Shown: positions 1-32,532 of the stretch, in pieces | Layout: every line of letters starts with the position of its first letter | Numbering within the stretch: the first letter of the stretch is position 1 | Origin: Actinomycetes bacterium | Lineage (GTDB): Bacteria; Actinomycetota; UBA4738; HRBIN12 | Assembly (NCBI GenBank): GCA_021155985.1 | Contig: JAJNBA010000007.1 | Coordinates: 1-49,988 of the forward strand | Reading direction: 5' to 3' | DNA: 49,988 nt | The notes under the pieces: model-generated | The model's input: only the letters and a program-made list of their open reading frames with translations | Told to the model about the DNA's origin: nothing | Databases searched by the model: none | Position numbers and translations under genes: made by a program

Positions 1-447
1 GGCCGGACGGAGCTGTTCACGAAGGGCGTGCTGACCGGGTTCCTCCACAACGCCTACACGGCGCACAAGGGCGGAACGGCCTCGACCGGCAACGGCAAGC
101 GCGGCTACCGAGCAGCGCCCGGCGTCGGCACGTCGAGCTTCTACCTCGACGCGGGGGAGACCCCTCTGGACGAGCTGCTGCGGCGAGCCGACGGTGGCGT
201 CATGATCCAGGACGTGAGCGGCGTTCACTCCGGCGCCAACCCGATCAGCGGGGAGTTCAGCGTCGGCGCGACCGGCCTCCGGATCGCCGCCGGGGCGATC
301 GGGGAGCCGCTGCGCGAGATGACGATCGCGTCGACCCTGCCCGAGATGTTGCAAGCGATCACCGGCGTGGGGGATGACCTCCGATTCTTCTCGTCCGTCG
401 GGACCCCGTCCGTGCTGATCGGGGAGATGACGCTCGCCGGCATCTGA
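1..447 (+). CDS. TldD/PmbA family metalloprotease-like protein, C-terminal part (5' end outside window)
   Basis: Open frame from base 1; C-terminal GYRAAPGVGTSSFYLDAGETPLDELL...GGVMIQDVSGVHSGANPISGEFSVGATG is typical of TldD/PmbA. Confidence 0.85.
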   Translation, partial: GRTELFTKGVLTGFLHNAYTAHKGGTASTGNGKRGYRAAPGVGTSSFYLDAGETPLDELLRRADGGVMIQDVSGVHSGANPISGEFSVGATGLRIAAGAIGEPLREMTIASTLPEMLQAITGVGDDLRFFSSVGTPSVLIGEMTLAGI

Positions 448-452
448 ACGAA

Positions 453-1820
453 TCAGAGCTGGAGGAGGCCCCTCGTCGTGAGCGCGAGGCCGACGAGGGC
501 GATGCAACCGCCCGACGCGACCGGCGCGAGTCGCATCAGCCGCGCCGGGAGCCTGCCCGTGGCGACATGCTTCGCGCGGATCGCCAGCGCCCCGAGTGCG
601 ACGAGCGACGCCGCGAGCCCGATGCTGAACGCCGCGATCAGGGCCAGACCGAGCGGCGTCCGGCCGATCGAGACAGATCCGAGCAGGACGACGAGCGCGC
701 TCGGCGACGGCAGGATGCCTCCTGCGAACGCGAGCGCGAGGAGTCCCCTCCGGGAGAGTGGTCGCGTGAGATGCGGATGGTCGTGCCCGTGCCGGTGACG
801 CTCCGACAGCGCGTGGATCCTCGAGACGAGCAGCGCGACGCCGAGCCCGAGCGCCACGATGCCCGAGGCGAGCCCGAGCCATGGATAGACACGGTCGGGC
901 GCGAAGATGCGCTCCGCCGAGAGCACAAGCAGACCGAGGCCCAGGACCGAGGCGGTGTGCATCACCGACACCGCCGCACCCACGGCGACGGCCTGCCGCA
1001 GCGTGCCGTCGGCGCCGATCACGTACGCGCCGATCAACGACTTCCCGTGCCCAGGCCCGAGCGAGTGCACGGCGCCGACGCCGACGGCGGCAGCGATCAT
1101 CAGGGCGATGAGGCCCACCGACAGGTCTCGACGAGCCGCGAACCCCGCCAGGAGCCCACCGCCGGCGGGCTCTGTGAGGGTCGCGCCGGGTCGCGCGTCA
1201 AGGGAGGCGCCGCCCGGCCGGAAGGCGAAGGAGGCGGATCGAACGTCTGAGGGGGCGACCTCCGCGGGATAGGAGCGGAGCCGGTTGCTCGGACTCTCGG
1301 TCGGCACGTCGGCGTCCACGATCGTCGCGCCGTCCCCGGCTGCCGTGACCTCGCGCCATCCGAGCCGGTCCGGGTAGTTGCGATCCTCGAACGCGAGATC
1401 GTGGTGCGCGGTCTCTTCGATCGCCGCAGCGAGGACGCAGCGCAGTCTGAGCGTGGGGAGCCCCGCCTGCCCGGCGGACAGGGACAGGCTCGACGACTGA
1501 GGCGTGATGGGAACGGCGGCACCGTCCACCCGGAGCAGGAGGCCCATCCGTAGGTCCCCGCAGGCTGCCGCGCGATAGGCGGCCTCCTCCGTCGAGGACG
1601 CGCCGTCGCCGTCGGGATCCAGCCGTGGCTGCTCCTGCAACGTGGGGATCTCCGCCATGTCCACGGCGTAGTCGACGACGATCTCGTCGGCGCGCACGAC
1701 CAGAGCGGCGGACGTGTTGATCGTGAAGTTTCCCAAGGGATGGGCGACGGCGAGGGTGGGGACCGCCAGCACGCCGAGCACGAGGGTCGTGACGATCAGG
1801 ACCCGCCGTGGAACGCTCAA
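453..1820 (-). CDS. NicO/RcnA-like nickel/cobalt (or TauE/SafE-like) membrane transporter with N-terminal extracytoplasmic region
   Basis: Signal peptide then HPLGNFTINTSA; multiple TM segments; GVGAVHSLGPGHGKSLIGAYVIG motif; His-rich loop HRHGHDHPH. Confidence 0.75.
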   Translation of the reverse strand: MSVPRRVLIVTTLVLGVLAVPTLAVAHPLGNFTINTSAALVVRADEIVVDYAVDMAEIPTLQEQPRLDPDGDGASSTEEAAYRAAACGDLRMGLLLRVDGAAVPITPQSSSLSLSAGQAGLPTLRLRCVLAAAIEETAHHDLAFEDRNYPDRLGWREVTAAGDGATIVDADVPTESPSNRLRSYPAEVAPSDVRSASFAFRPGGASLDARPGATLTEPAGGGLLAGFAARRDLSVGLIALMIAAAVGVGAVHSLGPGHGKSLIGAYVIGADGTLRQAVAVGAAVSVMHTASVLGLGLLVLSAERIFAPDRVYPWLGLASGIVALGLGVALLVSRIHALSERHRHGHDHPHLTRPLSRRGLLALAFAGGILPSPSALVVLLGSVSIGRTPLGLALIAAFSIGLAASLVALGALAIRAKHVATGRLPARLMRLAPVASGGCIALVGLALTTRGLLQL

Positions 1821-2021: not shown

Positions 2022-3563
2022 ATGGCTCAGAAGACCCGCGAGCAGATGATCTCCGAGAAGGTCGCGCCCGTCCTGGTGGCCCGAACGCTCGGCCCGTTCG
2101 ACCTCGTCGTGATCTTCGTGACGATCGTGCTCTTCATCAACAACGCGGCCGGCCTGCAGTTCGCTGGCCCGTCGGTGTTCATCTTCTGGATCGTCGCGTT
2201 CCTGACGTTCCTGATCACCGGGGCGTTCGTGACGGCCCAGCTAGGGAGGATGTTCCCCGAGGAGGGCTCGCTCTACGTCTGGACGCACAAGGTGCTGGGG
2301 CCATTCTGGGGCTTCTTCGCCGGCTTCGTCGCCTGGTGGCCCGGACCGATCTCGCTCGTGTTCATAGGGATCCTCTTCGCGAACTTCCTGCAGCAGGCCT
2401 CGGTGTTCATCGACCCCGACTGCGAGTTCCCGTGCCTATTCACCGAGAACTGGCAGATCGGCGTCGTCGTCCTGGTCGTGATCTGGTTCAGCGCGATGAT
2501 GTCTTATCTCAAGATGCGCGCAACGCAGAACTACGTGAACATGTTGTTCTGGTTCTACGCGGCGGCGATCTTCCTGATCGGGTTCGCCGGGGTGTGGTGG
2601 CTGCTGCAGGGCAACCCGGCGTCCACGGACTTCGGGACCGGCTGGAACCCGTTCCAGGGCGACGCGCTGGCCCTCGGCCTCCCCGCGAACCTGACCTTCT
2701 TCTCATTCGCGATCCTGGCGCTCCTCGGGATCGAGACCCCGCTGAACATGGGCGCGGAGGTGACGGGCGGGGAGAAGGCGATCCGCACGTTCCTGCTCTG
2801 GGGCTGCGCGATCGTGATGGCCGCGTACCTGTGGGCCACCTGGGGGAACATGGTCGTGATCGAGGCCGGGGGTGCGAACGGCACCACCGGAGGCGCGGAG
2901 ACGGTGGGCCGGTCGCTCGGGAGGTGGACCGGCGCCGCCGTGTCGTTGGTGATGGCGTGGGTCGTACTGACCGTCGCCGTCGTCTACAACTTCTCGTTCG
3001 GACGCCTGTTGTTCGTTTCCGGGATGGAGAAGCGTCTGCCGCACCAGATCGGGAACGTCAACCGGAACAAGGTCCCGGCGAACGCGATCACGCTCCAGAG
3101 CGCGATCTCGACTCTGATCGCGGTGGTCGTGTTCTTCGTGCTCGGAGGAGGGGAGGCCGACCCGTACAAGTACTTCTACGCGCTCTACGCCGGCGTCACG
3201 ATTGTGTGGTGCATCTCGACCGCGCTGCTGTTCCTCGACATCTTCTTCGCGAAGCGTGCCGAGCCGGAGCGGTTCGAGCGCGAGCGGCGGGTGCCGACCG
3301 GCATCCTGTTCCTGTGTGGTGCGGTGGGGTTCATCGTCAACATCCTCGCGGTGCTCTTCATCTTCGTAGGGTCGTGGTACCCGGCCGGGTTCCCCACGCT
3401 CAGGGAATGGAACTTCTGGATGATCGGTATCACCGCCGTGTCTGTGCTCTCGGGGATCGTGATCTGGTTCGTGTCGCAGTCCGCTCGGCGCGGCAAGTCG
3501 GACGAGGAGCTGATCGCCGAGGGTCTCGCCGACCGGGAGTTGGTCGAAGGTTCGTCGGCCTAG
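2022..3563 (+). CDS. APC superfamily amino acid/amine permease
   Basis: GGGAGG RBS at 2012-2017 ahead of ATG 2022 (MAQKTREQMISEKVAPVL); ~12 hydrophobic segments typical of APC permeases; the ORF-track GTG start at 2007 looks less likely. Confidence 0.8.
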   Translation: MAQKTREQMISEKVAPVLVARTLGPFDLVVIFVTIVLFINNAAGLQFAGPSVFIFWIVAFLTFLITGAFVTAQLGRMFPEEGSLYVWTHKVLGPFWGFFAGFVAWWPGPISLVFIGILFANFLQQASVFIDPDCEFPCLFTENWQIGVVVLVVIWFSAMMSYLKMRATQNYVNMLFWFYAAAIFLIGFAGVWWLLQGNPASTDFGTGWNPFQGDALALGLPANLTFFSFAILALLGIETPLNMGAEVTGGEKAIRTFLLWGCAIVMAAYLWATWGNMVVIEAGGANGTTGGAETVGRSLGRWTGAAVSLVMAWVVLTVAVVYNFSFGRLLFVSGMEKRLPHQIGNVNRNKVPANAITLQSAISTLIAVVVFFVLGGGEADPYKYFYALYAGVTIVWCISTALLFLDIFFAKRAEPERFERERRVPTGILFLCGAVGFIVNILAVLFIFVGSWYPAGFPTLREWNFWMIGITAVSVLSGIVIWFVSQSARRGKSDEELIAEGLADRELVEGSSA

Positions 3564-3570
3564 AGCGCGG

Positions 3571-3610
3571 AGGTCGGCCGCCGCCCATCGAGCGGGCGGC
3601 GGTCCGACCT
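3571..3610. terminator. Bidirectional hairpin terminator between convergent genes
   Basis: AGGTCGGCCGCCGCCC (3571-3586) pairs with GGGCGGCGG(T)CCGACCT (3594-3610): 16 bp, one bulged T, 7-nt loop; sits between + stop at 3563 and - stop at 3610. Confidence 0.55.
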
Positions 3611-4785
3611 CATGTTGTTCCGAAGCCGTGGAGGCGGCGACACGCGTCGCCGAGGACCAGCCGTCCGAGCCGCTCCGCCTCGTCCGTTGAGACGTAGTCG
3701 CGCTCGACGAACCGGCCGAGCACGCGCTCGAGCGTGGATCGGACGAGCAGGGCGGACGCCCAGAACGCCTCGGGCTCGCCCGCCTCGTCCGAGCCGTAAA
3801 GGAGCTTGGCGGCCGGGACCGTCCCGACGAGCATCTCGAGGGCCCACTCGACCTGCCCCCAGCCCCAGGGGATCAGCTCCGAGAGCTCGAGGTACACGTT
3901 CGGGAGGACGGACGCCACGTAGGCGGCCTCGCGGACCCACGGATACCCCGAGTGCACCAGTACGACCGGTTGGTCCTGGACATCGACGAGGAGCGGGAAG
4001 ATCGACGCCGGGCCCGCGTACGCGAGGTTGATGTCCGGATCTCCCCCACCGCAGTGGAAGTGGAAGGGTCGGTCGTTCGCCTTCGCGATCGCGAGTGCCC
4101 GGCGGATCAGGAAGTCGCGGACCGGCTTCGCGTGCTCCCTCGTCTCCGCCCACCCGTCGTCTCGCCATCGCGCGAATCCTGCCTCTGCGTCGGAGGAGCT
4201 GGGATCCCCGACGTCGAGACCCGTCCGGTAGGCGACGATCGACTTGTACGCCAAGCAGTTGGGGTCCGCCGCCGCCTGCGTCGCCTCCGCCTCGACGCCG
4301 GCGACGAGATCGTCGAACGATCCATCGCGATGGTGGAGGATCCATGGCTCCAGTCGGGTGACTCGGTGGACCGTGGCACCGATCGTCGACGCGAACTCCT
4401 CCGCGAGGATCGGCGGCTGCGGGAATCCTTCGTCGGAGAGGATCGCTACGACGCCGGCCGCATCGAGGAGTCCTTTGGTGTACGCGACCGGATCGGCGCG
4501 GAGCGCGGCATCCCTGGCTCGGGTGACCGCGTCGCGCGAGGGCTCACAGTCGAGATGCGCCGCCAGCCAGCGCCGGAGGGCGATCCCGAACACGGTGGAG
4601 TCCGTGAAGCCGTCCGCGACGGGCCACAGGTCGTCGTGGACGCGGGAGGATGAGTGGAACGACTCGCCCAGGAACATCATCCGGGTGTCGAAGCCCTCTG
4701 ATTCCTTCGCAAGGAGGTCCTCGAGCCGGTACGGGTGCGTGTGGGCGTCGACGATGTCGACCCCAGCCAGTCCGACGTCGGTCAT
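3610..4785 (-). CDS. TIM-barrel amidohydrolase, similar to the N-terminal half of FluG/nodulin-GS proteins
   Basis: VDAHTHPYR metal motif, HFHCGGGDPDINLAYAGP, VLVHSGYPWVREAAYVASVLPNVYLELS, LLYGSDEAGEPE; start overlaps upstream GS stop (TGATG). Confidence 0.75.
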   Translation of the reverse strand: MTDVGLAGVDIVDAHTHPYRLEDLLAKESEGFDTRMMFLGESFHSSSRVHDDLWPVADGFTDSTVFGIALRRWLAAHLDCEPSRDAVTRARDAALRADPVAYTKGLLDAAGVVAILSDEGFPQPPILAEEFASTIGATVHRVTRLEPWILHHRDGSFDDLVAGVEAEATQAAADPNCLAYKSIVAYRTGLDVGDPSSSDAEAGFARWRDDGWAETREHAKPVRDFLIRRALAIAKANDRPFHFHCGGGDPDINLAYAGPASIFPLLVDVQDQPVVLVHSGYPWVREAAYVASVLPNVYLELSELIPWGWGQVEWALEMLVGTVPAAKLLYGSDEAGEPEAFWASALLVRSTLERVLGRFVERDYVSTDEAERLGRLVLGDACRRLHGFGTT

Positions 4786-6188
4786 CAGTATCTCCACCGA
4801 TGGACGCGAACGACGTCCTCGGGATCCTGGTCCTCGAAGACATCGCGTTCCGCGCGCCTCGTTGCGAGGAACGAGTCGAATAGCACATCGCCCATCGCCT
4901 CGCGGAGCATCGAGGACTTCTCGAGCTCTCGGATCGCGGCGCTCAGTGAGTCGGGCAGCCGGCTGACGCCCAACGAGCGACGTGTGCGGGCGGGGATCGA
5001 GGCGGGGTCGTCAGCGACGGGCTGGGGGAGCGACAGCTCGCGGTCGAGTCCGTCGATACCGGCGGCCACGATCGCGCCGAGTGCGAGGTAGGGGTTCGCG
5101 GCCGGGTCCATGGACTTCACCTCCAGGTTGGCGGCTTCCGGTCGGCTCCCGACCATTCCGGTCACGAAGCGGAGGGCCGCCTCGCGGTTCTCGCGTCCCC
5201 AGCACGCCCAGGGACCGCTCCATCGGTGGGGCTGGAGTCGCTCGTAGCTGGGGACCGACGGCGCGGTGATCGCGGTGAGCGCGGGGAGTGCTTCGAGCAC
5301 CCCTGCCGTGAACGCCTCGGCGTCGCGCGTCATGCCTTCGGGACCGCGTCCACCCTGGAACAGGTTCTTTCCCTTCCGATCCCACAGGCTCAGGTGCAGG
5401 TGGTTCCCGTTGCCGACGCGCCCCGCGAAGACGACCGGCGCGAACGAGGCGGTGTAGTCGTGGGTGCGCGCCACTGCCCTGATCGTGTGGCGTACGACGA
5501 GGTGGGTGTCAGCGGCGGCGATCCCGACGCCGTGCGGCACCGAGAGCTCGAGCTGCCCGGTCGAGTACTCGGGGTGGAACTGCATGACGCCCGTTCCCTG
5601 CGCCTCGAAGGCGCCGATCAGCGCCGTCGCGAACGGTTCGACGTCCGCGAGCGCGATCGCTCCATAGGCGGGTCCCGTGTGCGCCGGCGTCGGATCGGCC
5701 TCGTCCGGTCCCGGCGTGGCGCGATGTCCGAGGAAGAACTCGATCTCGAACCCCCCGCGGAGCTCCAAACCGTGGCCGGCGAGCCGCTCGAGCATCGTTC
5801 GGGCGAACGTGCGCGGGCAGCCCGGGTACGGATCGCCCTCCTGGTCGAGCTGGTCCACGGGCGCGAGCGCCCACCCCGGGCTCGCGGCGAGCCCGATCGT
5901 CTGCGCCGGATCCGGCATCAGCCGTGTGTCGCCCGCCGGTCCGCCGATGTGCGGCGACGACGTGATCTGGTCGTCGACCTGGAAGACCGTGAAGACGGGA
6001 GAGAGGCCGATCCCGAACCGAGCCGCCTCCTCGAACCGACGGAGGGGGATCGTCTTGACGAGGGTGACCCCCGAGTTGATCACGATCGCGAGCGCGACCG
6101 CCTCGACGCCGGAGGCGGCGAGGCGTCGCGCGGTCTCCGCGGCTTCGCCGCCGCCGCCACTCTTCGACCGCCCGCGGGACGACGCCAT
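4785..6188 (-). CDS. Glutamine synthetase-like ligase, FluG/NodGS C-terminal type
   Basis: GS motifs FEIEFFL, NGNHLHLSLWD, NLEVKSMDPAANPYLALGAI; ATG 6188 just after upstream GS stop; the longer ORF to 6959 is out-of-frame read-through of the upstream GS. Confidence 0.8.
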   Translation of the reverse strand: MASSRGRSKSGGGGEAAETARRLAASGVEAVALAIVINSGVTLVKTIPLRRFEEAARFGIGLSPVFTVFQVDDQITSSPHIGGPAGDTRLMPDPAQTIGLAASPGWALAPVDQLDQEGDPYPGCPRTFARTMLERLAGHGLELRGGFEIEFFLGHRATPGPDEADPTPAHTGPAYGAIALADVEPFATALIGAFEAQGTGVMQFHPEYSTGQLELSVPHGVGIAAADTHLVVRHTIRAVARTHDYTASFAPVVFAGRVGNGNHLHLSLWDRKGKNLFQGGRGPEGMTRDAEAFTAGVLEALPALTAITAPSVPSYERLQPHRWSGPWACWGRENREAALRFVTGMVGSRPEAANLEVKSMDPAANPYLALGAIVAAGIDGLDRELSLPQPVADDPASIPARTRRSLGVSRLPDSLSAAIRELEKSSMLREAMGDVLFDSFLATRRAERDVFEDQDPEDVVRVHRWRY

Positions 6189-6193
6189 CGGAC

Positions 6194-7522
6194 CTAGAAC
6201 AGCTCCAGGTACTCCGTGCGCTCCCAGTCCGACACGGAGTCCTGATACCGGGACAGCTCGTACCGACGCATCCGCGAGTAGGCCGTGACGAAGTCCTCGC
6301 CGAGGAACTCCTTCGCGGCCGGGTCTTCTTCGAGGGCGTGGAGCGACTCCTCCAGGGCGATCGGGAGCTTTTCGAAGGTGTCGTCCTCCTCCGCGGGGAC
6401 GCCCGGCTTGGACGGGTCGGGGACCGGCAGCTCCTCCTCGATCCCACGGAGCCCGGCTTGCAGGAGTGCTGCTCCCACGATGTAGGGGTTCGACATCGCC
6501 GACGGGGCCCGATACTCGACGTGCTTGTTCGTCGCGCTTCCCCCTTTCACGCGCACGAGGGCGGAGCGGTCCTCCAGTCCCCAGGAGATGTTCGACGGGC
6601 TGAACGTGTGCGGGCGCCGACGCCGGAGGCAGTTCACGGTGGGTGCGATCACGGCGTCGATCGCGCGGGCGTACTTCAGCTGGCCGGCGATGAACGACCG
6701 GCACGCGGCCGTCATCCCCTGGGGATCGCTCGCGTCGCCGAACGCGTTCTCCTCTGAGTCCGCGTAGAGCAGGGAGATGTGGGTGTGACAGCCGCTCCCG
6801 GCCGAGTCGGCCCACGGTTTCGTCATGAAGGTGGCGAGGTAGCCGTCCTGTTTCGCGATCTCCTTCACGCCGTTCTTGAACGTGAAGGCGTTGTCCGGGC
6901 CGGCGAGCCCGCGTCCGGGCGCGAAGTTGATCTCCCACTGCGATCCGGCGTACTCGCAATTCGCCGTGATGATGTCGACGCCGACCTGCGGCATCTCGTC
7001 GAGGATCCGGCGGATCGTCGGCACGAAGTCGTTCCGGAGCGTGTTGAAGATGTGGTAGCCGGTGAACAACGGCTCGTGGGTGTCACTCGTGAGGAGATAG
7101 AACTCGAACTCGGATCCGAGGAGCGGCTCGAACCCCATCGAACGTGCTTTCTCGAGCGCCTGCCGGAAGACGTGCCTGGGTGTCGCGGCGAGGGCCGTCC
7201 TGTCGTGCCACTGGGCGTCGCAGATCAGCCGCGCCGTGCGATCGGCCCACGGCAACACCTGGGCGGAGCCGGGATCGGGGAACAGCAACTGGTCTCCGTA
7301 GCCTCGCTCCTCGTGATAGAGCGTCCCGCCGACGACATCCGAGCGGGTATCCAGCACGCTCGTCCCGCCGTACATGTTCAGGCCTCGTTCGGCGTAGTCG
7401 AAGGCGTGTGAGATCGGGATCGTCTTCGATCGAGAGATGCCGTGCATGTCGGGAAGCTCGAACCGGACGAACCCGATGTCCTGCTTCTGCCAGCCCTCCA
7501 GGATCCCCTTCACGTCGGTCAT
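6194..7522 (-). CDS. Glutamine synthetase family protein (GlnA3/GlnT-like)
   Basis: SEFEFYLL, AGSGCHTHISL, NKHVEYRAPSAMSNPYIVGAAL; 442 aa; first gene of minus-strand GS-GS-amidohydrolase run. Confidence 0.85.
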   Translation of the reverse strand: MTDVKGILEGWQKQDIGFVRFELPDMHGISRSKTIPISHAFDYAERGLNMYGGTSVLDTRSDVVGGTLYHEERGYGDQLLFPDPGSAQVLPWADRTARLICDAQWHDRTALAATPRHVFRQALEKARSMGFEPLLGSEFEFYLLTSDTHEPLFTGYHIFNTLRNDFVPTIRRILDEMPQVGVDIITANCEYAGSQWEINFAPGRGLAGPDNAFTFKNGVKEIAKQDGYLATFMTKPWADSAGSGCHTHISLLYADSEENAFGDASDPQGMTAACRSFIAGQLKYARAIDAVIAPTVNCLRRRRPHTFSPSNISWGLEDRSALVRVKGGSATNKHVEYRAPSAMSNPYIVGAALLQAGLRGIEEELPVPDPSKPGVPAEEDDTFEKLPIALEESLHALEEDPAAKEFLGEDFVTAYSRMRRYELSRYQDSVSDWERTEYLELF

Positions 7523-7608
7523 CGATCGGCTCCTCTCGATGCGGGTGCCCAGACGTGCGTGCTCATCCTGCCCGGACCGCGCGGCGCCCGGAGGGCTGGG
7601 TTATACCG

Positions 7609-7628
7609 TGCGAGCCTCGTGGCTCGCA
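7609..7628. promoter_or_regulatory. Inverted repeat in divergent intergenic region, candidate operator
   Basis: TGCGAGCC-TCGT-GGCTCGCA, 8-bp perfect arms, 4-nt spacer, between divergent 6194..7522(-) and 7717..9108(+). Confidence 0.4.
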
Positions 7629-7716
7629 ACGGATGACCTCCGCGCGCGGCGTGCCGTACGCTACTGCCGCCGGGCGGGCCGAGTCGCCCGGTAGGTTCGA
7701 CCCCCAAGGAGGCCGG

Positions 7717-9108
7717 TTGGGACAGACGGCGATCGAGAGCGACCGGACGCATGTCCTCCCGCTCGAATTCGGGCGGGCGATGCCGATCGCGGTGCGGGGA
7801 GACGGCGTCTGGATCGAGGACGCGGACGGCCGCCGGTACCTCGACGCGATGAGCGGCGGCTCGATGGCGGCCACGCTCGGCCACGGACGGCGAGACATCA
7901 TCGCCGCGGCTCGGGCACAGGCCGAGACCCTCGCATTCGTCCACAACGAGCGGATGACGAACCCGACCCAGGAGCGGCTCGCCGAGGAGCTCGTCGGCGT
8001 CGCGCCCGAGGGGTTCACCCGGGCACGGTTCACGGTCAGCGGCGCCGACGCGAACGAGATGGCGATCCAGATCGCCCGCAGCTATCACGTCGAACGAGGC
8101 GACGTGGACCGCTGGCAGGTGATCTCGCCGGCCCAGGCGTACCACGGCCCGACGTTGGAGACGCTCGCGCTCACGGGTCGTCCCGGCATGCACGGACCGT
8201 TCGGTCCCTATCTGCCGAAGCACCTGCACATCCCCCCGAGCACCTGGCGATTCGACCCGACCGGCGAGGCCGCGCTCGAGGCGCTGGACCGGGCACTGGA
8301 GGAGGCGGGTCCGGAGAACGTCTCCGCGTACTTCTGCGAGGCGATCAGCGCCGCCGCGCTCCCCGGTTACACGCCACCCATTCGGTTCTGGGAAGGGCTC
8401 GCGGAGCGACGCGAGCGCCACGGTTTCCTCGTGTGCTTCGACGAGGTGGTCACGGGGGTCGGCCGAACCGGCCGATGGTTCGCCGGCGCGGGGACGGCCT
8501 GCGTGCCCGACATCATCGCGACGGCCAAGGGCCTCGGCGCGGGGTACGCGGCGATCGGTGCCGTCCTCGTCCGCGAGCGCGTCTACGAGGCGTTCGCTCA
8601 GGGCTCGCGCCGCTTCACCCTCGGCCACACGTGGGACGGCGCTCCGCTCGCGTGCGCCGTCGGGCTCGCCGTCCTCGAGGCGATGCGCACGGAGGGGTTG
8701 GTCGAACGGGTGCACGATCGTGGTGCGCAGCTCCTCGGCGAGCTCGGGGACGCGCTCGCGGGGATCCCCCTCGTTCGCGAGGTGCGTGGCCACGGGTACC
8801 TGCTCGGTGTGTCGTTCGTCGATCCGCGCGACGGCGAGTCGTTCCTCCCGCCGGAGCTCCGGTTCGGGGCGCGGATCGACGCAGCCGCGTTCGATCGCGA
8901 ACTGATCGTCCTCTCGACCCAGCCGACGCGCGACGGCTACGCTGGCGACCAGACGCTCTTCGCTCCGGCGTTCACGGCGACGGACGAGGAGCTCGGCGAG
9001 ATGGTGTCCCGGTTCGCCGAGGTCGTGCGCAGCGTCGCGGCCGATGTGGAGCCGGAACTCGCCCGTGCCGCGCCGATCACGTCGGCACCGATAGGAGGCG
9101 CTCGATGA
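7717..9108 (+). CDS. Class-III PLP aminotransferase (copy 1)
   Basis: TTG start with AAGGAGG RBS 4 nt upstream; FDEVVTGVGRTGRW; DIIATAKGLGAGYAAIG catalytic Lys; start upstream of 7717 is spurious read-through. Confidence 0.85.
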   Translation: MGQTAIESDRTHVLPLEFGRAMPIAVRGDGVWIEDADGRRYLDAMSGGSMAATLGHGRRDIIAAARAQAETLAFVHNERMTNPTQERLAEELVGVAPEGFTRARFTVSGADANEMAIQIARSYHVERGDVDRWQVISPAQAYHGPTLETLALTGRPGMHGPFGPYLPKHLHIPPSTWRFDPTGEAALEALDRALEEAGPENVSAYFCEAISAAALPGYTPPIRFWEGLAERRERHGFLVCFDEVVTGVGRTGRWFAGAGTACVPDIIATAKGLGAGYAAIGAVLVRERVYEAFAQGSRRFTLGHTWDGAPLACAVGLAVLEAMRTEGLVERVHDRGAQLLGELGDALAGIPLVREVRGHGYLLGVSFVDPRDGESFLPPELRFGARIDAAAFDRELIVLSTQPTRDGYAGDQTLFAPAFTATDEELGEMVSRFAEVVRSVAADVEPELARAAPITSAPIGGAR

Positions 9109-9842
9109 GCCGCACCGAGCGGGATCCCGAGCGGCTGCGCGCGCTGATCCTCCAACACGAGGAGCCGACGCCGCCCGGGCACGTGACGGAGTGGCTCGCG
9201 GCGCACGGCGCGGACGTCGACACGTGGCGCATCGACGTCGAGGATCGTGACGTCGATCCACGCGACTACGACCTGATCGTGTCGCTCGGCTCGGAGTTCG
9301 CCGCGTTCGACGACACGAAGCCCTTCGTCGTCCGGGAGGCGAACATGCTCGAGAAGGCGGTCGCCGAGGACGTGCCGGTGCTCGGCCTGTGCTTCGGCGG
9401 CCAGATGCTGGCCCGCGCGCTCGGGTCCCGCGGATTCCGTCACGAGGAGGCCGAGATCGGCTGGCTCCCCGTCCGGACCTCGGATCCCGAGCTCGTGCCC
9501 GAGGGTCCGTGGTTCCAGTGGCACTTCGATTCGTTCACGGTGCCGCCGGGCTCGACCGTCGTGGCGGACACCGACGTCGGCCCGCAGGCGTTCGTCGCGG
9601 GTCGGAGCCTCGGCCTCCAGTTCCATCCCGAGGTGACGACGCAGATCATGGACGACTGGGTCCGCGTTTATCGCCACGAGCTCGACAGCGACGGCGTCGA
9701 CCCGGACGCGTTGCTCGCGGAGACCAAGCGCATCGCCGGCGAGAGCCGCGCCCGGGCCTTGCAGCTATTCGAGCACTTCCTCCACGAGGTCGCGGGGATC
9801 GAAGCACCCCACGAGGCCGACCTGGACGAGCGAGCGGGCTGA
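9105..9842 (+). CDS. Class-I glutamine amidotransferase-like hydrolase
   Basis: ATGA overlap with preceding gene; nucleophile elbow VLGLCFGGQMLARAL and GLQFHPEV. Confidence 0.85.
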   Translation: MSRTERDPERLRALILQHEEPTPPGHVTEWLAAHGADVDTWRIDVEDRDVDPRDYDLIVSLGSEFAAFDDTKPFVVREANMLEKAVAEDVPVLGLCFGGQMLARALGSRGFRHEEAEIGWLPVRTSDPELVPEGPWFQWHFDSFTVPPGSTVVADTDVGPQAFVAGRSLGLQFHPEVTTQIMDDWVRVYRHELDSDGVDPDALLAETKRIAGESRARALQLFEHFLHEVAGIEAPHEADLDERAG

Positions 9843-9853
9843 GCGGTGGTCGC

Positions 9854-11218
9854 GTGACCACCCCCGCCATCGCCTCAACCGCCACCCACGTCTTCCCCCG
9901 CTTCCTCGACCTCGACTACCCGAATGTCGAGCGCGGCGACGGCGTATGGCTCACGACTACCGACGGTCGCCGGATCCTCGACGCGACCTCGGGCGGCGCG
10001 ATGGTCGCCTGCCTCGGGTCCGGCGTGCCGGAGATCGCGGAGGCAGCCGCGGAGCAAGCCGAACGGCTCTCGTACTTCTACAACCACCACTTCACGAGCG
10101 AGCCGCAGGAGCGTCTCGCCGACCGACTGTTGGAGGTCGTCGCGCCGGGGATGGCGCGGGTCCGGCTCGTCTCCGGCGGTTCCGAGGCGAACGAGACCGC
10201 GCTGCAGCTCGCTCGCCTGTACCACGTCGAGCGCGGCGACACCGCGCGCTGGCGGGTGATCTCGCCAGCGCAGGCGTACCACGGATCGACGATGGGCACA
10301 CTGGCGCTCACCGGCCGCCGAACGTTGCAGGAGCCGTACACCCCGTACCTCGCCGGGCACCTTCATCTCCCGCCCTCGACATGGCGCACCGACCCGACCG
10401 GCGAGGCGGCGCTGGCCGAGCTCGATCGGCTCCTCGAGGAGGCCGGACCGGAGACGATCGCGGCGTTCTTCATCGAACCGGTGAGTGCGGCGGCGCTCCC
10501 CGCGTACTCGCCGCCCGATCGCTTCTGGCAGGGCCTCGACGAACGCCGTGCCGAGCACGGGTTCCTGATCTGTTTCGACGAGGTCGTGACCGGCATCGGC
10601 AGGACGGGGAACTGGCTCGCCGCGGATCAACTCGCCGTCGAGCCGGACATCGTGGCGATCGGCAAAGGTCTCGGCGCCGGGTACGCGCCGCTCGGAGCGG
10701 CCCTCTGCCGCCAGCACGTCTACGACGCGATCGATCGCGGGTCGCGCGAGTTCGACCTGGGCCACACCTGGGACGGCGCACCTCTGTCCTCGGCGGTCGG
10801 CCTGGCCGTCCTCGATCTGCTCGTCGAGCGGAACCTGATCGACCGGGTCCGCGAGCGAGGCCCCGATCTCCGCGACGATCTCGAGGCGGCACTCCAGGAC
10901 TTCGAAATCGTCCGCGAGGTCCGGGGTCGTGGCTTCCTCCTCGGCGTGGAGCTCGTCGATCCGCGGGACGGGGAGTCGTTCCTGCCGTTCGACCTCGACG
11001 TGGCGTCGCTCGTCGACGACACCGCGTTCGAACGAGGGCTGCTCGTCACGTCCACGCATCCCCAGGCGGACGGCTTCGCCGGGGATCAGGTCCTCCTCGC
11101 GCCGGCCTACGTGACCCCGGACGAGGAGCTCGCGCAGATCGTCGAGCGGTTCCGAGCGACGATCGCGTCGGTACAGGAGTCGATCGAGGTCTCGCTGGCG
11201 GCCGCGGGCACCGGATGA
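9854..11218 (+). CDS. Class-III PLP aminotransferase (copy 2)
   Basis: GTG 9854; FDEVVTGIGRTGNW, DIVAIGKGLGAGYAPLG; strongly similar to copy 1 along its length. Confidence 0.85.
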   Translation: MTTPAIASTATHVFPRFLDLDYPNVERGDGVWLTTTDGRRILDATSGGAMVACLGSGVPEIAEAAAEQAERLSYFYNHHFTSEPQERLADRLLEVVAPGMARVRLVSGGSEANETALQLARLYHVERGDTARWRVISPAQAYHGSTMGTLALTGRRTLQEPYTPYLAGHLHLPPSTWRTDPTGEAALAELDRLLEEAGPETIAAFFIEPVSAAALPAYSPPDRFWQGLDERRAEHGFLICFDEVVTGIGRTGNWLAADQLAVEPDIVAIGKGLGAGYAPLGAALCRQHVYDAIDRGSREFDLGHTWDGAPLSSAVGLAVLDLLVERNLIDRVRERGPDLRDDLEAALQDFEIVREVRGRGFLLGVELVDPRDGESFLPFDLDVASLVDDTAFERGLLVTSTHPQADGFAGDQVLLAPAYVTPDEELAQIVERFRATIASVQESIEVSLAAAGTG

Positions 11219-12513
11219 GCTCGACCGCGTCCCTCGGCGAGGAGTTCGTGCTCCTCGCGATCCCCGACATGAACGGGTCGCTCCGGGGCAAGGCGCTCCG
11301 CCCGGCAGCGTTCGACGCGGCCGTCCGAAACGGGACCGTGATGACGGACCTGATCCTCGGTCTCGACCCGGTGGACACGCCGATCACCGACTACGAGCGG
11401 TTCGGGATCCGCACCGGCGCTGCCGACCTACTCGTGACGCCCGACGGCGAAACGCTGCGCGATCTCACGTGGCGGCCCGGCTGGCGGATCTGCCTCGCGA
11501 CACCGAGTTGGCCGGACGGCAGCCCCTGTGACTTCGCCTCTCGTGAGGTGTTCGCGAGGATCGTGGAGGACATGTCGTCGCTCGGCTACGACGTGATGGC
11601 GGCGATCGAGTACGAGGTGCGCATCTGGGACGAGCAGGGTTCGCCGCTCTCGAGCGGGATCAGCTACAGCCTGAACGAGATCGGACGCTACGACAGATTC
11701 GTCGACGCGCTCGTGGGAGCCCTTCGTGCGCTCGACGTGGAACTCTCCGCGGTGCACACGGAGGCGGGGCCGGGGCTCCTCGAGCTGAACCTGGCCCCCG
11801 CGCGGGGACTCGCTGCCGGCGACGGAGCGGTGCTGGCGAAGTTCGCGACGAAGCAGGTGGCGGACTCGATGGGACTGCGCGCGAGCTTCCTCGCGAAGAC
11901 CGTGCCGGGCGAGGAAGGATCCAGCGGCCACGTCCACCTGTCGTGCTGGGACGGGGACACGAACGCGTTCGCGGCCGTGGCTGCCGAGGATCCGCTCCCG
12001 GATCCCCTCGCCGGAGCGATCGCGGGCGTCCTAGAGCACCTCCCCGCGGCGTCCTTGCTCCTGAACCCGACGATCAACTCGTACAAACGGCTCGTCCCCG
12101 GCTGGTTCGCACCGATCAACGCCACGTGGGGCTACGAGAACCGGTCGTGCGCTGTGCGGGCGATCCGCTCGGCCCGACCCGAGCTCTGGCGGTTCGAGTG
12201 CCGGCGTCCGGGTGCGGACGCGAACCCCTACCTGGCGCTCGCCGCGATCGCCGCCTCGGCGGCGGATGGGATGCGGCGGAGTGCCACGCCGCCCGAGCCG
12301 ATCGAAGGGGACGCCTACGCTCGGGCGGACCTCCCCGAGCTCCCCGGCTCGTTGGAGGCGGCGATCGCCGCGTTCGGTGAGGACGAGGCTCTCCAGCGAG
12401 CTCTCAGCATCGGGTTCTCCGACTACTTCGTCACCTCGCGTGCCTGGGAGCTCAAGGCGTGGCGCGAGACGGTCACCGACTGGGAACGCGACCGCTACGA
12501 TCGATCCGTCTAG
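11215..12513 (+). CDS. Glutamine synthetase-like ligase (gamma-glutamylamine synthetase type)
   Basis: ATGA overlap with preceding gene; IEYEVRIWDE, SSGHVHLSCWD, PTINSYKRLVPGWFAP, FECRRPGADANPYLALAAI. Confidence 0.85.
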   Translation: MSSTASLGEEFVLLAIPDMNGSLRGKALRPAAFDAAVRNGTVMTDLILGLDPVDTPITDYERFGIRTGAADLLVTPDGETLRDLTWRPGWRICLATPSWPDGSPCDFASREVFARIVEDMSSLGYDVMAAIEYEVRIWDEQGSPLSSGISYSLNEIGRYDRFVDALVGALRALDVELSAVHTEAGPGLLELNLAPARGLAAGDGAVLAKFATKQVADSMGLRASFLAKTVPGEEGSSGHVHLSCWDGDTNAFAAVAAEDPLPDPLAGAIAGVLEHLPAASLLLNPTINSYKRLVPGWFAPINATWGYENRSCAVRAIRSARPELWRFECRRPGADANPYLALAAIAASAADGMRRSATPPEPIEGDAYARADLPELPGSLEAAIAAFGEDEALQRALSIGFSDYFVTSRAWELKAWRETVTDWERDRYDRSV

Positions 12514-12519
12514 GAGCGG

Positions 12520-13950
12520 TCACTCTTCGCTGAAGTAGACGTTCTTCACCTCGGTGTAGAGCGCCGCCGCGTGCATCCCCATCTCGCGGCCGAGCCCGCT
12601 CTGCTTGAAGCCGCCGAACGGCGCCTCCGTGAACACGCTGCTCGAGGAGTTCACGCTGATCACGCCGGTGCGGATCGCCTTCGCCACGCGGATCGCCCGG
12701 CCGATGTCACGCGTCCACACCGAGCCCGACAGCCCGTAGTGCGTGTCGTTCGCGAGACGGATCGCCTCCTCCTCCGTGTCGAACGGCAGGATGCAGACGA
12801 CGGGCCCGAAGATCTCCTCGCGCGCCACGCGCCAGGAGTTGTCGACGTCCGCGAGCACCGCGGGGCGCAGGTAGAAGCCTTCCCCGTCGGGCACATCGCC
12901 GCCGGTCACGAGTCGCGCGCCCTCCTCCTGACCGATCGAGAGGTAGTCGAGCGAGGTCTGCCGCTGCCCCTGGCTGATCAGCGGCCCCATCTCGGTCGCT
13001 TCATCCAAAGGCTCGCCGATCGCGATCGCCTCGGTTGCCTTCGAGAAGCGCTCGACGTAGTCGTCGTAGATCGCGCGCTGCACGAACTGCCGCGAGCGAG
13101 CGCAGCAGTCCTGCCCCGCGTTGTCGAAGACCGACCACAGTGACTTCGGGATCGCGACGTCGAGGTCGGCGTCGTCGAACACGACGTTCGCGGACTTCCC
13201 GCCGAGCTCCAACGACACCCGCGTGATGTTGGCTGCCGCCGCCGCCATCACCTGCGTGCCCACCTCCGTGGAGCCCGTGAACCCGATCTTCGCGACGCGG
13301 GGGTCGGCGATCAGTGCGGCGGCCGTCGTGGACCCAGGGCCGGGGAGCACGCTCAGTGTTCCCTCCGGGACCCCTGCTTCCATCAGGATGTCGGCGATCG
13401 CGAGGGCGGTCAGCGGGGTCTGCGAGGCGGGCTTGAGGACCGCGGTGTTCCCGCACGCCAGGGCGGGGGCGACCTTCCAGTTCGCGATCACGGCCGGGAA
13501 GTTCCACGGGCTGATCAGGACGCAGGGACCCACCGGCTCGCGGAGGGTCACGTCGAGTCCGGGCGGGACGATCGGGATCGTCTCCCCGAAGATCTTGTTG
13601 GCCGCGCCGCCCCAGTACTCGTAGGTATTCGCGACGATGTCGATCTCGGCGCGCGCGCCGCTGATCGGCTTGCCGCCGTTACGCGCCTCGAGCGTCGCGA
13701 GCTCCTCGGCCTTGTCACGGATCAGGAACGAAGCCTTGGTGAGGATGTGTCCGCGCTCACGAGCGCTCATGCGACGCCACGGCCCCGACTCGAACGCGTC
13801 CACCGCCACATCGAGGGCGCGGCGGGCATCTTCCGCGGATGCTTGCGCGACCTCCCACGCGGCGTTCCCCGTCGATGGCTCCACCACCTCGGTGGTCGCG
13901 CCGTCGGCGGCCGCCACCCGCTCCCCACCCAGCACCAACAGTTCGGTCAT
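12520..13950 (-). CDS. NAD(P)-dependent aldehyde dehydrogenase
   Basis: SLELGGKSANVVF, NAGQDCCARSRQFVQ, EIFGPVVCILPF, PFGGFKQSGLGREMG; start MTELLVLGGERV at 13950. Confidence 0.9.
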   Translation of the reverse strand: MTELLVLGGERVAAADGATTEVVEPSTGNAAWEVAQASAEDARRALDVAVDAFESGPWRRMSARERGHILTKASFLIRDKAEELATLEARNGGKPISGARAEIDIVANTYEYWGGAANKIFGETIPIVPPGLDVTLREPVGPCVLISPWNFPAVIANWKVAPALACGNTAVLKPASQTPLTALAIADILMEAGVPEGTLSVLPGPGSTTAAALIADPRVAKIGFTGSTEVGTQVMAAAAANITRVSLELGGKSANVVFDDADLDVAIPKSLWSVFDNAGQDCCARSRQFVQRAIYDDYVERFSKATEAIAIGEPLDEATEMGPLISQGQRQTSLDYLSIGQEEGARLVTGGDVPDGEGFYLRPAVLADVDNSWRVAREEIFGPVVCILPFDTEEEAIRLANDTHYGLSGSVWTRDIGRAIRVAKAIRTGVISVNSSSSVFTEAPFGGFKQSGLGREMGMHAAALYTEVKNVYFSEE

Positions 13951-14170
13951 CGTCGCCTCCGCTGGACTCGTCATGGCGTCGTGCGGCTGGGCGGCCTCCG
14001 CATGACCGGCAGCCGAACCGACCACGATCAGGCACCACACACTAATGGAAGCGAAGATCCCTCCTCCAGGGTCGGTGAACCGGCCGTCGTCATCCGCTCT
14101 CCACCATGCGAAAAGGTTCCTGTAATGAAGGATGGGCCAGACTCGACGGGGACGAGGGAAGGAAACGTCG

Positions 14171-14704
14171 ATGTTGCGATGGGCGAGAGCGCACAGGGTG
14201 GCCGCGGTCGCGATCGCGCTGGCGGCGCTGGCGCTGTTCGGGCTCGGCATCTATTGGTTCGGCCCGCAGCGGCTCGTCCTGGATCGTGAGGTGGCCGAGG
14301 CGCTGCCGACGCCGACAGGGGCAACGGATCCCTCTACCGGCGAGGAACCGCTCGAGGAGCCTTCCGGGGTCGAGGAGGTCGGTTCCGGGGAGTTCCAGAG
14401 CCTCGAGCACGGCACCATGGGCCTGGCCCGGATCGTCGAGCTCCAGGACGGTACTCGCTTCGTCCGGCTGGAGGACCTCGACACTTCCGATGGCCCGGAC
14501 CTGCGCATCTACCTCACCGATCAACCGCTCTCCGACGACTGGCGCATCTGGGACGACGGCGTGTACCTCGATCTTGGGGCGCTGAAGGGCAACGTCGGGG
14601 ATTCGAACTACCGGGTCCCCGAGAACGTGGATCTCTCGCGATTCCGGACGGTCGTGATCTGGTGTCGGCGGTTCACCGTCGGCTTCGGCGTCGCCCCGAT
14701 CTAG
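14171..14704 (+). CDS. DM13 domain membrane-anchored protein
   Basis: N-terminal TM (VAAVAIALAALALFGLGIYWF) then SLEHGTMGLARIVELQDGTRFVRLEDLDTSDGPDLRIYLTD...GNSNYxVP-type DM13 pattern. Confidence 0.8.
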   Translation: MLRWARAHRVAAVAIALAALALFGLGIYWFGPQRLVLDREVAEALPTPTGATDPSTGEEPLEEPSGVEEVGSGEFQSLEHGTMGLARIVELQDGTRFVRLEDLDTSDGPDLRIYLTDQPLSDDWRIWDDGVYLDLGALKGNVGDSNYRVPENVDLSRFRTVVIWCRRFTVGFGVAPI

Positions 14705-14708
14705 TGGT

Positions 14709-15548
14709 TCAAACGGTCGCGTCGCGGACGTTCGCGACGATCAGGATCGCGACCACGACCGCGAGGGCTACTCGATAGCCGAGGAAGACCGTGAAGTCGT
14801 GGCGCTTCAGGTAGCGGAGCAAGCCCCAGATGACGACGAACCCGCTGATCGCCGACGCCGCCATGCCGGCGACGAACTCCGCGGCGTGACCCTGGAGCCC
14901 GGTCCGCGCGAGGTCTACCGCCTTGTAGGTGCCGGCGCCGGCGATGATCGGGAGCGACAGCAAGAACGAGAAGCGCGCGGCGGACTCCCGGTCCAGGCCC
15001 ATCGCCCTCGCCGCGGTGATCGTCACGCCCGAGCGCGACACGCCGGGCTGGAGCGCCAACGCCTGCGCCGTGCCCAGCAGGAGGCCCTCCTTCGGTCCGA
15101 TCGAGTCGAAGTCGCGATCGCTCCGGGCACGGCGATCGACGACGACGAGCACGATCCCGAAGGCCACCAGCATCACTGCGATCAACCAGGGCGCGCCCAG
15201 CTTCTCCTGGATCACGTTCTCGAACAGCGCCCCCACGATCGCTCCCGGGATCGTCCCGACGACGAGGGCCCAGGCGATCCGCTCGTCCGGCGTCGACATC
15301 CGCCTGGTGGCGATCGAATGGAACCAGGCCGCGGCGTACCTCGCGACGTCGTTCCGGAAATAGATCAGCGCGCCGAGGAGCGTGCCCATGTGCAGCGCGA
15401 CGTCGAAGGACTTCTGGAGGTCGGGGTCGCCGATCGCTCCCCATCCGAACATCCACGGCACGAGGATCAGGTGTCCCGAGCTCGAGACCGGCGCGAACTC
15501 CGTCGCCCCCTGCACGAGGCCGAGGACGATCGCTTGCAGGATGCTCAC
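14709..15548 (-). CDS. uppP: Undecaprenyl-diphosphate phosphatase
   Basis: MSILQAIVLGLVQGATEFAPVSSSGHLILVPWMFGW; LQPGVSRSGVTITAARAMGLDRESAARFSFLLSLP. Confidence 0.93.
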   Translation of the reverse strand: MSILQAIVLGLVQGATEFAPVSSSGHLILVPWMFGWGAIGDPDLQKSFDVALHMGTLLGALIYFRNDVARYAAAWFHSIATRRMSTPDERIAWALVVGTIPGAIVGALFENVIQEKLGAPWLIAVMLVAFGIVLVVVDRRARSDRDFDSIGPKEGLLLGTAQALALQPGVSRSGVTITAARAMGLDRESAARFSFLLSLPIIAGAGTYKAVDLARTGLQGHAAEFVAGMAASAISGFVVIWGLLRYLKRHDFTVFLGYRVALAVVVAILIVANVRDATV

Positions 15549-29601: not shown

Positions 29602-31149
29602 TCAGGCGAAGCGCGCGGTGAACACGGCGTCGGCATCCGACCAACCGCCGAGCCCGAGACGGGCCACGAGCGAGCGGCACGAGCCAGCCCAGCCCGCCTC
29701 GGTCCGCCACTGCAGCATCAGTCTGCCGTTGTTCGACAGGTTCGCCTGGACCGACGCCGACTGCTCGGCCAGCACCTCGCCGGTCGCGCAGTCCACCTTG
29801 CGCACCAGCGGGTACCCGTTCGCGAACACGGACCCCTGTGGGTGTCCCCCGAGCTCGAGGATGATCGGGATCACGCGCCCCGCAGAGAAGACCGACGTGT
29901 TCGTGATCGGCCCGGCGATGTCCTCGAACACGACGTACTCGTGGGTCGCGGAGCCGACGTTCCCCTCCGCGTCCGTCCCGGTGACGGTGAACGCGTGCGA
30001 GCCCGGTCGGTTCGGCACGATCGACCCGTCCGCGACCGGTCCCCGGCAGGAGATCACGCCCGAGCCCCCGGCCTCATCCGTGCAGAAGTAGTCGGCGACC
30101 ATGCCCTCGCCGTCGGTCAGCACCGAGCCGTGCGCCGGCGACACGATCGTGACGGTCGGAGCGACGTCATCGGCGGGGCCGGAGGGCTCGAGCCGCCCCA
30201 CGCGGTTCGTGCCTTGGGCGCTGAACCAGATCGCGCCGTCGGCCCCGGTCGTGATGCCGGTCGGCGTGGCGCCCTCGCCGAGCGGGATCTCGACGATCGC
30301 GCCGTCGAGGCCGATCCGGCCGACGGCGTCGGCGGTGCTCTCCGTGAACCAGAGCGCTCCGTCGGCCCCCGTCGTGATCCCGCTCACCCCGGCTCCGGGC
30401 GTGGGGACCGGATAGGTCGTCAAAGCTCCTCCGGTCGTCATCCGCACGATCGTGTTGGATGCGCGAGCCGTGAACCAGAGCGCGCCGTCCGGACCGGTGG
30501 TGATCCACTGCGGGCCGCTCGCGTTCGGGGGGAGCGGGAACTCCGTCATCGTGCCGTCGAGCGTGATCCGTCCGACCACGTTCGCAGCCGTCAGGGTGAA
30601 CCACATCGCTCCGTCGGATCCCGTCGTCACGCTGAGCGGCGCGGCGCGAGGGGTGATCGTTCGCCACTCCGTGATCTCTCCGTCCGGGGTGATGCGGCCG
30701 ATCGCGCCGACGCCTCGCTGCGCGAACCAGAGCGCGCCGTCGGGGCCGAGCGTGATGCCCGTCGGCGTGGACAGGTCGCGGAGATAGAACTCGGAGAGCT
30801 CCCCGTCGATCGTGAGCCGCCCGATCCGGTTCCCGTTGTGCTCGGTGAACCACATCGCCCCGTCGGACCCTCGGGCGATGTCGTAGGGATCGACGCCGGA
30901 CTCGAGGGGGATCGACGACGACGATCCGTCGGGGGCGAGCCGCGTGATCTCGGCGGCCGCGCGACTGGCCACCCACGTCTTCCCGTCAGGGCCCGCGGCG
31001 AGTCCCTGGGGGAAGGAGTCCGACGCCGGCAAGTCGAACCAGGTGGGTTCGACGGCAGCGGCGGGCAGGCTGATGGCGCCGAACAGCGAGGCGAGGATCA
31101 CCAGCGCGGACCCCGCCACGATCGAAGCATGGTGCTTGCGCCGTACCAT
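29602..31149 (-). CDS. Secreted Vgb-family (virginiamycin B lyase-like) beta-propeller protein with C-terminal domain
   Basis: Signal peptide MVRRKHHASIVAGSALVILASLFGAISLPAAA; repeats of GPDGALWFTxxxxNxIGRIT-DGxxTEFPLP. Confidence 0.8.
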   Translation of the reverse strand: MVRRKHHASIVAGSALVILASLFGAISLPAAAVEPTWFDLPASDSFPQGLAAGPDGKTWVASRAAAEITRLAPDGSSSSIPLESGVDPYDIARGSDGAMWFTEHNGNRIGRLTIDGELSEFYLRDLSTPTGITLGPDGALWFAQRGVGAIGRITPDGEITEWRTITPRAAPLSVTTGSDGAMWFTLTAANVVGRITLDGTMTEFPLPPNASGPQWITTGPDGALWFTARASNTIVRMTTGGALTTYPVPTPGAGVSGITTGADGALWFTESTADAVGRIGLDGAIVEIPLGEGATPTGITTGADGAIWFSAQGTNRVGRLEPSGPADDVAPTVTIVSPAHGSVLTDGEGMVADYFCTDEAGGSGVISCRGPVADGSIVPNRPGSHAFTVTGTDAEGNVGSATHEYVVFEDIAGPITNTSVFSAGRVIPIILELGGHPQGSVFANGYPLVRKVDCATGEVLAEQSASVQANLSNNGRLMLQWRTEAGWAGSCRSLVARLGLGGWSDADAVFTARFA

Positions 31150-31201
31150 GTTTCGGGTATCGGCATCTCGGCTCGATCTGCGCACCCGGCGAAGGTCGCG
31201 A

Positions 31202-31225
31202 GGCCTCCCCCGGCTGGGGGAGGCC
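31202..31225. promoter_or_regulatory. Perfect 10-bp stem hairpin in divergent intergenic region
   Basis: GGCCTCCCCC-GGCT-GGGGGAGGCC, between divergent starts at 31149(-) and 31243(+). Confidence 0.4.
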
Positions 31226-31242
31226 GAGAGTATGCTCCGCCG

Positions 31243-32472: not shown

Positions 32473-32532
32473 GCGGACCAGGGTGCCGGCGTCTGCCATG
32501 ATGACGCGCGTCCGCACGAGGGAGTCGAGCCG

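Follow-up and report, generated by a model that had tools for sequence, protein, structure and literature searches.

Gamma-glutamylation systems are the closest described relatives of the locus reported here. The Pseudomonas class-III aminotransferase SpuC, which is linked to gamma-glutamylation genes, has been reported to deaminate putrescine and gamma-glutamylputrescine (PMC10606097, citing earlier work; PMC11879879), and glutamine synthetase (GS)-like amine ligases without the ammonium-handling residues have also been reported (PMC11335346, PMC6478659). We analyzed a nine-gene locus in a 49,988-nucleotide stretch of DNA (the window), which is the entire contig C89 (JAJNBA010000007.1) of an Actinomycetes metagenome-assembled genome (MAG; GCA_021155985.1, 2.67 Mb, 139 contigs, 91% complete). 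Four of its genes, encoding two aminotransferases (AT1 and AT2), a class-I glutamine amidotransferase (GATase), and a GS-like ligase (GSc), form a core that is conserved across three phyla. At a probability of about 0.62, we conclude that the locus is catabolic for one or more amines, in the manner of Pseudomonas spu/pau gamma-glutamylation, with aminotransferases replacing the PuuB oxidase. The features of the locus are as follows:

2022-3563, plus strand: APC-superfamily amino acid/amine permease (Pfam AA_permease_2, E = 3.7e-32); variable part of the locus
3610-4785, minus strand: Amidohydro_2 metal-dependent hydrolase of the FluG N-terminal/SCO6961 type (PF04909; PDB 2qpx, E = 3e-24)
4785-6188, minus strand: GSa, predicted gamma-glutamyl-amine ligase of the glnA3-like type (Pfam Gln-synt_C; D50 to S, E327 to W)
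6194-7522, minus strand: GSb, predicted gamma-glutamyl-amine ligase (Pfam Gln-synt_C; D50 to Y, E327 to F)
7523-7716, no strand: divergent intergenic region with a putative operon on either side
7717-9108, plus strand: AT1, class-III omega-transaminase-type aminotransferase, core (Pfam Aminotran_3; K271, D242, and T305 intact)
9105-9842, plus strand: class-I GATase, core, probable gamma-glutamyl amide hydrolase (Cys96-His174-Glu176)
9854-11218, plus strand: AT2, class-III aminotransferase and AT1 paralog, core (57% identical to AT1)
11215-12513, plus strand: GSc, predicted gamma-glutamyl-amine ligase, core (Pfam Gln-synt_C; D50 to T, E327 to F)
12520-13950, minus strand: aldehyde dehydrogenase (ALDH), convergent with GSc (Pfam Aldedh)

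Open reading frames and family searches bore out the nine genes, with the families, order, and strands given by an earlier reading of the DNA from its letters only (the sequence-only reading), except that the gap between GSc and ALDH is 6 nucleotides rather than 7. The core AT1-GATase-AT2-GSc (7717-12513) is found with its gene order unchanged in 28 genomes belonging to the Actinomycetota, Chloroflexota, and Dormibacterota, a count that includes the window and genome G002 and some loci at which a terminal gene is cut by a contig end. No locus examined showed a broken core order, and because this order is kept across three phyla, the arrangement is not due to chance. The synteny scan covered 84,980 genomes, queried with an alignment of GSc and two short motifs, so that distant relatives are under-counted; it yielded 38 loci, 35 of them close (at least 54% identity). 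Hosts comprise the window's own actinomycetotal group (KatS3mg013), Solirubrobacterales, Thermoleophilaceae, soil Chloroflexi, and one Dormibacteraeota MAG. Synteny, whose restriction to close relatives the sequence-only reading had named as contrary evidence, extends well beyond them. A GSc ortholog is present in only 14 of 397 genomes sampled from the phylum of the window, and 13 of these 14 belong to the same order as the window; this patchy distribution makes transfer between phyla likely.

The sequence-only reading had taken the three GS paralogs to be gamma-glutamyl-amine ligases rather than ammonia-assimilating enzymes, and this is borne out at the level of the active site. In an alignment with E. 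coli GlnA, PuuA, and plasmid genes annotated as IpuC (Salmonella numbering), GSa, GSb, and GSc all retain the metal, ATP, and glutamate residues E129, E131, E212, E220, H269, R321, R339, R344, and E357. The residues that bind and deprotonate ammonium, D50 and E327, are lost in each (S/W in GSa, Y/F in GSb, and T/F in GSc), as they are in PuuA (P/Y) and IpuC (C/W), and the same replacement letters are fixed in 15 orthologs (4 of GSa, 6 of GSb, and 5 of GSc). GSa additionally carries R355N and R359K. Elsewhere in the genome, contigs C11 and C50 encode GlnA with both D50 and E327, capable of nitrogen assimilation, and contigs C126, C77, and C13 encode further ligases without E327. With the catalytic residues kept, the ammonium-site pair lost, and two true GlnA genes elsewhere, the three paralogs are almost certainly gamma-glutamyl-amine ligases. 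That they are ordinary glutamine synthetases, as their Pfam Gln-synt_C match would allow, is barely conceivable given the same two losses, the two real GlnA genes, and scores far below the curated GlnA cut-off.

The three ligases share only 26 to 30% pairwise identity, and each is monophyletic in our tree (100/100); on this phylogeny, they are old, separate subfamilies. The GSa clade (100/100) takes in a Streptomyces GS encoded directly upstream of an Amidohydro_2 gene. PuuA falls outside all three clades, the best GS score with the PuuA equivalog model, 341 bits, is below the cut-off of 650, and GSc is ∼35% identical to the plasmid genes annotated as IpuC. The suggestion that the three form a heteromeric ligase now appears unlikely, given their ancient separate clades, their low identity, and the absence of GSa and GSb from some core loci; recent GS duplicates forming a heteromer are ruled out by the identities and clades.

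The GATase is probably a gamma-glutamyl amide hydrolase. Its residues C96, H174, and E176 do not vary among eight orthologs spanning several lineages, and its AlphaFold model (pLDDT 89) is closest in fold to the stand-alone GATases MsGATase, TM1158, and DnfC, with Arabidopsis gamma-glutamyl peptidase 1 further down the list. Genes of the PuuD type (Peptidase_C26) are separate neighbors of the core in many relatives and also occur on contig C126 of the same genome.

AT1 and AT2 are separated into two clades in the tree (96/98), from which four rows were left out, namely, AT1 copies from loci where AT2 is split, truncated, or lower scoring. The pair evidently stems from one old duplication that preceded the spread of the operon. 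Pyridoxal phosphate-site residues aligned to GabT K268, D239, and T297 are retained in nearly all sequences of both. At the positions of the GabT carboxylate arginines R141 and R398 and of E211, both proteins carry other residues (P or S/A, L or V, and A, respectively), which places neither with the PuuE/GabT type; AT2 as a gamma-aminobutyric acid (GABA) aminotransferase is ruled out, since both arginines are absent. PDB sequence matches are to omega-transaminases and to putrescine and polyamine:pyruvate transaminases. Among them is the polyamine:pyruvate transaminase 9j4z, significantly matched by both AT1 and AT2 at E values of ∼1e-54 to 1e-57, which is not the best match; the tree contained no SpuC sequence. 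AT1 and AT2 are each fixed for a different residue at a number of positions, among them the counterparts of GabT I50, C77, V80, and L81, which we take to belong to the substrate pocket, and these differences may reflect two substrates.

Several parts vary around the core, namely, GSb, ALDH, permeases, regulators, and the PuuD-type hydrolase; linkage to the core was seen in 16 genomes for GSb and at 10 core loci for ALDH. We observed three layouts. The window type runs permease, amidohydrolase, GSa, GSb, core, and ALDH. The Thermoleophilia/Dormibacter type comprises ALDH, AT1, GATase, a FadR-like regulator, AT2, GSc, a PuuD-type hydrolase and/or permease, GSb, and GSe. The Chloroflexi type has an ethanolamine-permease-like transporter with GSd, then GntR, aldolase, dehydrogenase, FGGY kinase, AT1, GATase, AT2, GSc, a PuuD-type hydrolase, and an RpiR regulator. 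Orthologs of the window permease (65 to 82% identical) occur at three related loci. Junctions read from the sequence are tight: ATGA overlaps join AT1 to GATase and AT2 to GSc, a TGATG overlap joins GSa to the amidohydrolase, 5 nucleotides separate GSb from GSa, and 11 separate the GATase from the GTG start of AT2. The best AT1 start is TTG at 7717, preceded by AAGGAGG. In some window relatives, a gene for a GAF-PucR regulator occupies the divergent gap (three relatives) or lies just 3′ of GSc. A riboswitch hint at the substrate was sought, but the Rfam search gave only a tRNA and no match in 7523-7716. Electron transfer flavoprotein genes lie near GSc at L053/L079, L050/L078, and L105 (just downstream in L079), and an acyl-CoA dehydrogenase gene lies near the core in L050.

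From these genes, a pathway can be proposed. The APC permease would import the amine, and GSc would couple glutamate to its amino group with ATP, GSb and GSa serving other amines or other ends. AT1 and/or AT2, acting as an omega-transaminase, would convert the free amino group to an aldehyde, yielding alanine or glutamate, and ALDH would oxidize the aldehyde to an acid. The GATase, in relatives together with the PuuD-type hydrolase, would cleave the gamma-glutamyl bond and return glutamate, while the second aminotransferase may use either the amino compound thereby released or another amine. We infer the simplest order to be gamma-glutamylation, transamination, aldehyde oxidation, and hydrolysis, with AT1 the presumptive enzyme for the gamma-glutamyl amine; the roles of GSa, GSb, and the amidohydrolase, and the substrate itself, are deduced likewise. 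This scheme draws support from the lost ammonium site, the conserved core order, the invariant GATase triad, and the PuuD-type hydrolase near many cores, as well as from the putrescine/polyamine transaminase matches, the missing GabT residues, the SpuC precedent, and the 46% identity of ALDH to the ALDH beside IpuC on plasmid pTC2 (PuuC and GabD of E. coli, 38%).

Other observations weigh against an amine pathway in which transamination replaces the oxidase. Several Chloroflexi have no ALDH at the locus but instead a kinase, a dehydrogenase, and an aldolase. About 12 strong DAO-family flavoproteins are encoded elsewhere in the genome, so that an unlinked oxidase is possible; the best match to PuuB among them, on contig C114, is 30% identical. 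The sequence-only reading had noted that no oxidase was visible. This is true of the locus and of all related loci: an E. coli PuuB query found no homolog by tblastn in stretches of up to ∼10 kb on either side of any core locus, and a positive control recovered the GS-PuuB pair of a Thioclava plasmid. It does not hold for the genome, with its dozen or so DAO flavoproteins. The locus is thus without an oxidase, from which a pathway without an oxidase does not follow. The accompanying proposal that an aminotransferase replaces PuuB fits the oxidase-free core loci, although an unlinked oxidase is possible and the chemistry is already known from SpuC. A co-regulated PuuB-type oxidase elsewhere in the genome, which the same reading had named as contrary evidence, is not cleanly dismissed: the C114 protein is a candidate, but it lies on another contig, and the 20 kb around its gene showed no match to any of the nine window proteins. 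The DAO flavoproteins, on contigs C114, C8, C77, C107, C40, and C119, lie in several cases within open frames of 700 to 840 amino acids (three on C114) and could be sarcosine/dimethylglycine-type enzymes. Amine oxidases of PF01593 occur in 145 of 150 genomes, which makes their presence uninformative.

A further point against transamination of gamma-glutamyl amines is that the aminotransferases could act only on free amines. AT1 and AT2 would then use free amines or omega-amino acids, as do PatA and beta-alanine aminotransferases, and the GS and GATase genes would form a parallel or detoxifying route that is merely co-regulated. We regard this as a serious but clearly less probable explanation. 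Both proteins resemble amine:pyruvate omega-transaminases, the pair differs at fixed pocket positions, and Pseudomonas putida runs direct transamination and gamma-glutamylation in parallel (PMC11879879). However, AT1 and AT2 bracket the GATase and directly precede GSc at every complete locus, which suggests a single pathway. It is very improbable that the locus is instead biosynthetic, with a gamma-glutamylated product or with gamma-glutamyl in a protecting role. GS-like ligases and class-III aminotransferases are generally known in biosynthesis too, but the neighbors examined include no carrier, synthase, or exporter genes, and the APC permeases, ALDH, PuuD-type hydrolases, and GAF-PucR, FadR-like, and GntR-type regulators at these loci are usual for catabolism.

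Within the gamma-glutamylation scheme, the most interesting lead is a linked kinase-aldolase cassette, which hints at a hydroxylated amine. It consists of an ethanolamine-permease-like transporter, the GSd ligase, a Zn-alcohol dehydrogenase, an FGGY kinase, a DhnA-type aldolase, a GntR regulator, and a PuuD-type hydrolase. In five Chloroflexi, AT1 is immediately preceded by gntR-aldolase-dehydrogenase-kinase, and at three further loci the cassette lies within 10 kb. Five window relatives (G002, G003, G004, G007, and G010) carry the aldolase 7.5 to 20 kb from the core GATase on the same contig, one of them being the L081 locus already counted among those three. Counterparts 70 to 79% identical to the Chloroflexi kinase, dehydrogenase, and aldolase are present on contig C126 of the window genome, where positions 5191-14787 (L067) hold an ethanolamine-permease-like gene, GSd, the FGGY kinase, the Zn-dehydrogenase, the DhnA-type aldolase, a second GATase, and a PuuD-type gene fused to GrpB. 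Two of the matches there contain a single in-frame stop codon (TGA in the aldolase, TAG in the GATase), reflecting decay, match ends, or assembly error.

That the substrate is an amino alcohol or amino polyol, whose skeleton the locus and cassette together would degrade, is a tentative special case of the amine-catabolic scheme, and on balance unlikely. It is favored by the proximity of cassette and core in Chloroflexi and window relatives, by the high identity of the cassette genes between phyla and the copy on C126, and by the cassette permease, which scores 359 to 376 bits against an ethanolamine permease model with a cut-off of 382. Over 150 relatives, with core presence scored by hand, 10 had both core and aldolase, 4 the core only, 6 the aldolase only, and 130 neither (Fisher p = 6e-9, inflated by relatedness). 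Against it, no cassette was seen at the Thermoleophilia-type loci examined or in genomes G025 and G026, six genomes have the cassette without the core, and co-occurrence within the window's family is not significant (Fisher p = 0.12). Somewhat more doubtful still is that the core belongs to an undescribed pathway for hydroxylated or sugar-like amines, split between two neighboring gene sets in soil Actinomycetota and Chloroflexota, in which gamma-glutamylation and two specialized transaminase paralogs would be joined by alcohol oxidation, FGGY-kinase phosphorylation, and aldolase cleavage. If the link is real, it would point to a class of amine substrate not yet assigned to gamma-glutamylation.

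Outside the locus, the window encodes a third class-III aminotransferase (32533-33861, plus strand; ∼33% identical to AT2 and above the NCBIfam PRK06062 cut-off). Nitrilase-superfamily genes at 44686-45504 (plus strand) of the window and at 358-1161 (minus strand) of L085 score below the cut-off for deaminated glutathione amidase (omega-amidase type); the latter adjoins a PuuD-type gene and GSe near a core. A beta-propeller protein with a PxKF domain (29602-32517, minus strand) scores far below the cut-off of streptogramin lyase models and is not evidence of resistance.

The locus and E. coli puuPADRCBE agree, at the level of families, in transporter, ligase, ALDH, aminotransferase, and hydrolase functions; the one-to-one mapping onto Puu in the sequence-only reading fails in part. 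The locus has no PuuB, BLAST of the GATase against E. coli PuuD and of the permease (2022-3563) against PuuP gave no match, and the aminotransferases lack the PuuE/GabT arginines; a direct Puu ortholog set is rejected on these four counts. The isopropylamine (ipu) clusters of Paenarthrobacter, and a similar one carried by a Microbacterium plasmid, resemble the locus in IpuC, ALDH, GATases, an APC permease, and a GAF-domain regulator. They differ in the cytochrome P450-ferredoxin system that adjoins their ligase and in a distant aminotransferase (32 to 33%); family searches found no P450 or other monooxygenase among the nine window-locus genes. AtdA1A2 (aniline) and NpaA1A2 (1-naphthylamine) likewise combine a GS-like ligase lacking the ammonium-site residues with a GATase-like hydrolase (PMC11335346), but are followed by a Rieske dioxygenase rather than aminotransferases.

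In Streptomyces coelicolor glnA3-SCO6961 and fungal FluG, a ligase is paired with an Amidohydro_2 protein (PMC5403932, PMC6478659), as GSa is with the adjoining amidohydrolase, whose match 2qpx is the structure to which the amidohydrolase half of FluG was matched (PMC6478659); the likeness is limited to this submodule, itself absent from many core loci. Plasmid pYJN5-2 of the cultured Paenarthrobacter sp. YJN-5 carries ALDH, aminotransferase, GS, and FCD regulator genes with a gene of the gamma-Glu-GABA hydrolase family, the first three in two inverted copies. Its aminotransferase, 54% identical to both AT1 and AT2, favors the amine-catabolic scheme, and its cultured host makes it a good laboratory handle. 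In the same plasmid region (12573-22789, L157), 5-oxoprolinase subunit genes accompany the doubled set, on a conjugative plasmid with IS21 copies.

Also close is the Pseudomonas spu/pau polyamine route, where genes for a ligase (SpuB/SpuI), a gamma-glutamyl hydrolase (SpuA), and a class-III aminotransferase (SpuC) also stand together; here, too, all three lie in one locus with no linked oxidase. It differs in having one spuC per cluster, in contrast to the AT1/AT2 pair around the GATase, and in its pau oxidases, spu ABC transporter, other ligase subfamilies, and hosts. A full-text search, from which most subscription journals were out of reach, found no paper describing this operon. The locus is nevertheless not the undescribed kind of system first supposed: since SpuC is reported active on gamma-glutamylputrescine, an aminotransferase in place of PuuB is not new. 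Many MAG genes labeled "glutamine synthetase" or "aspartate aminotransferase family" are misnamed, and the conserved set would give uncultivated soil lineages a route to amine nitrogen without an H2O2-forming oxidase. The novelty relative to spu/pau lies in a GATase gene flanked by two duplicated aminotransferase genes and accompanied by distinct ligase subfamilies, an arrangement conserved in three phyla.

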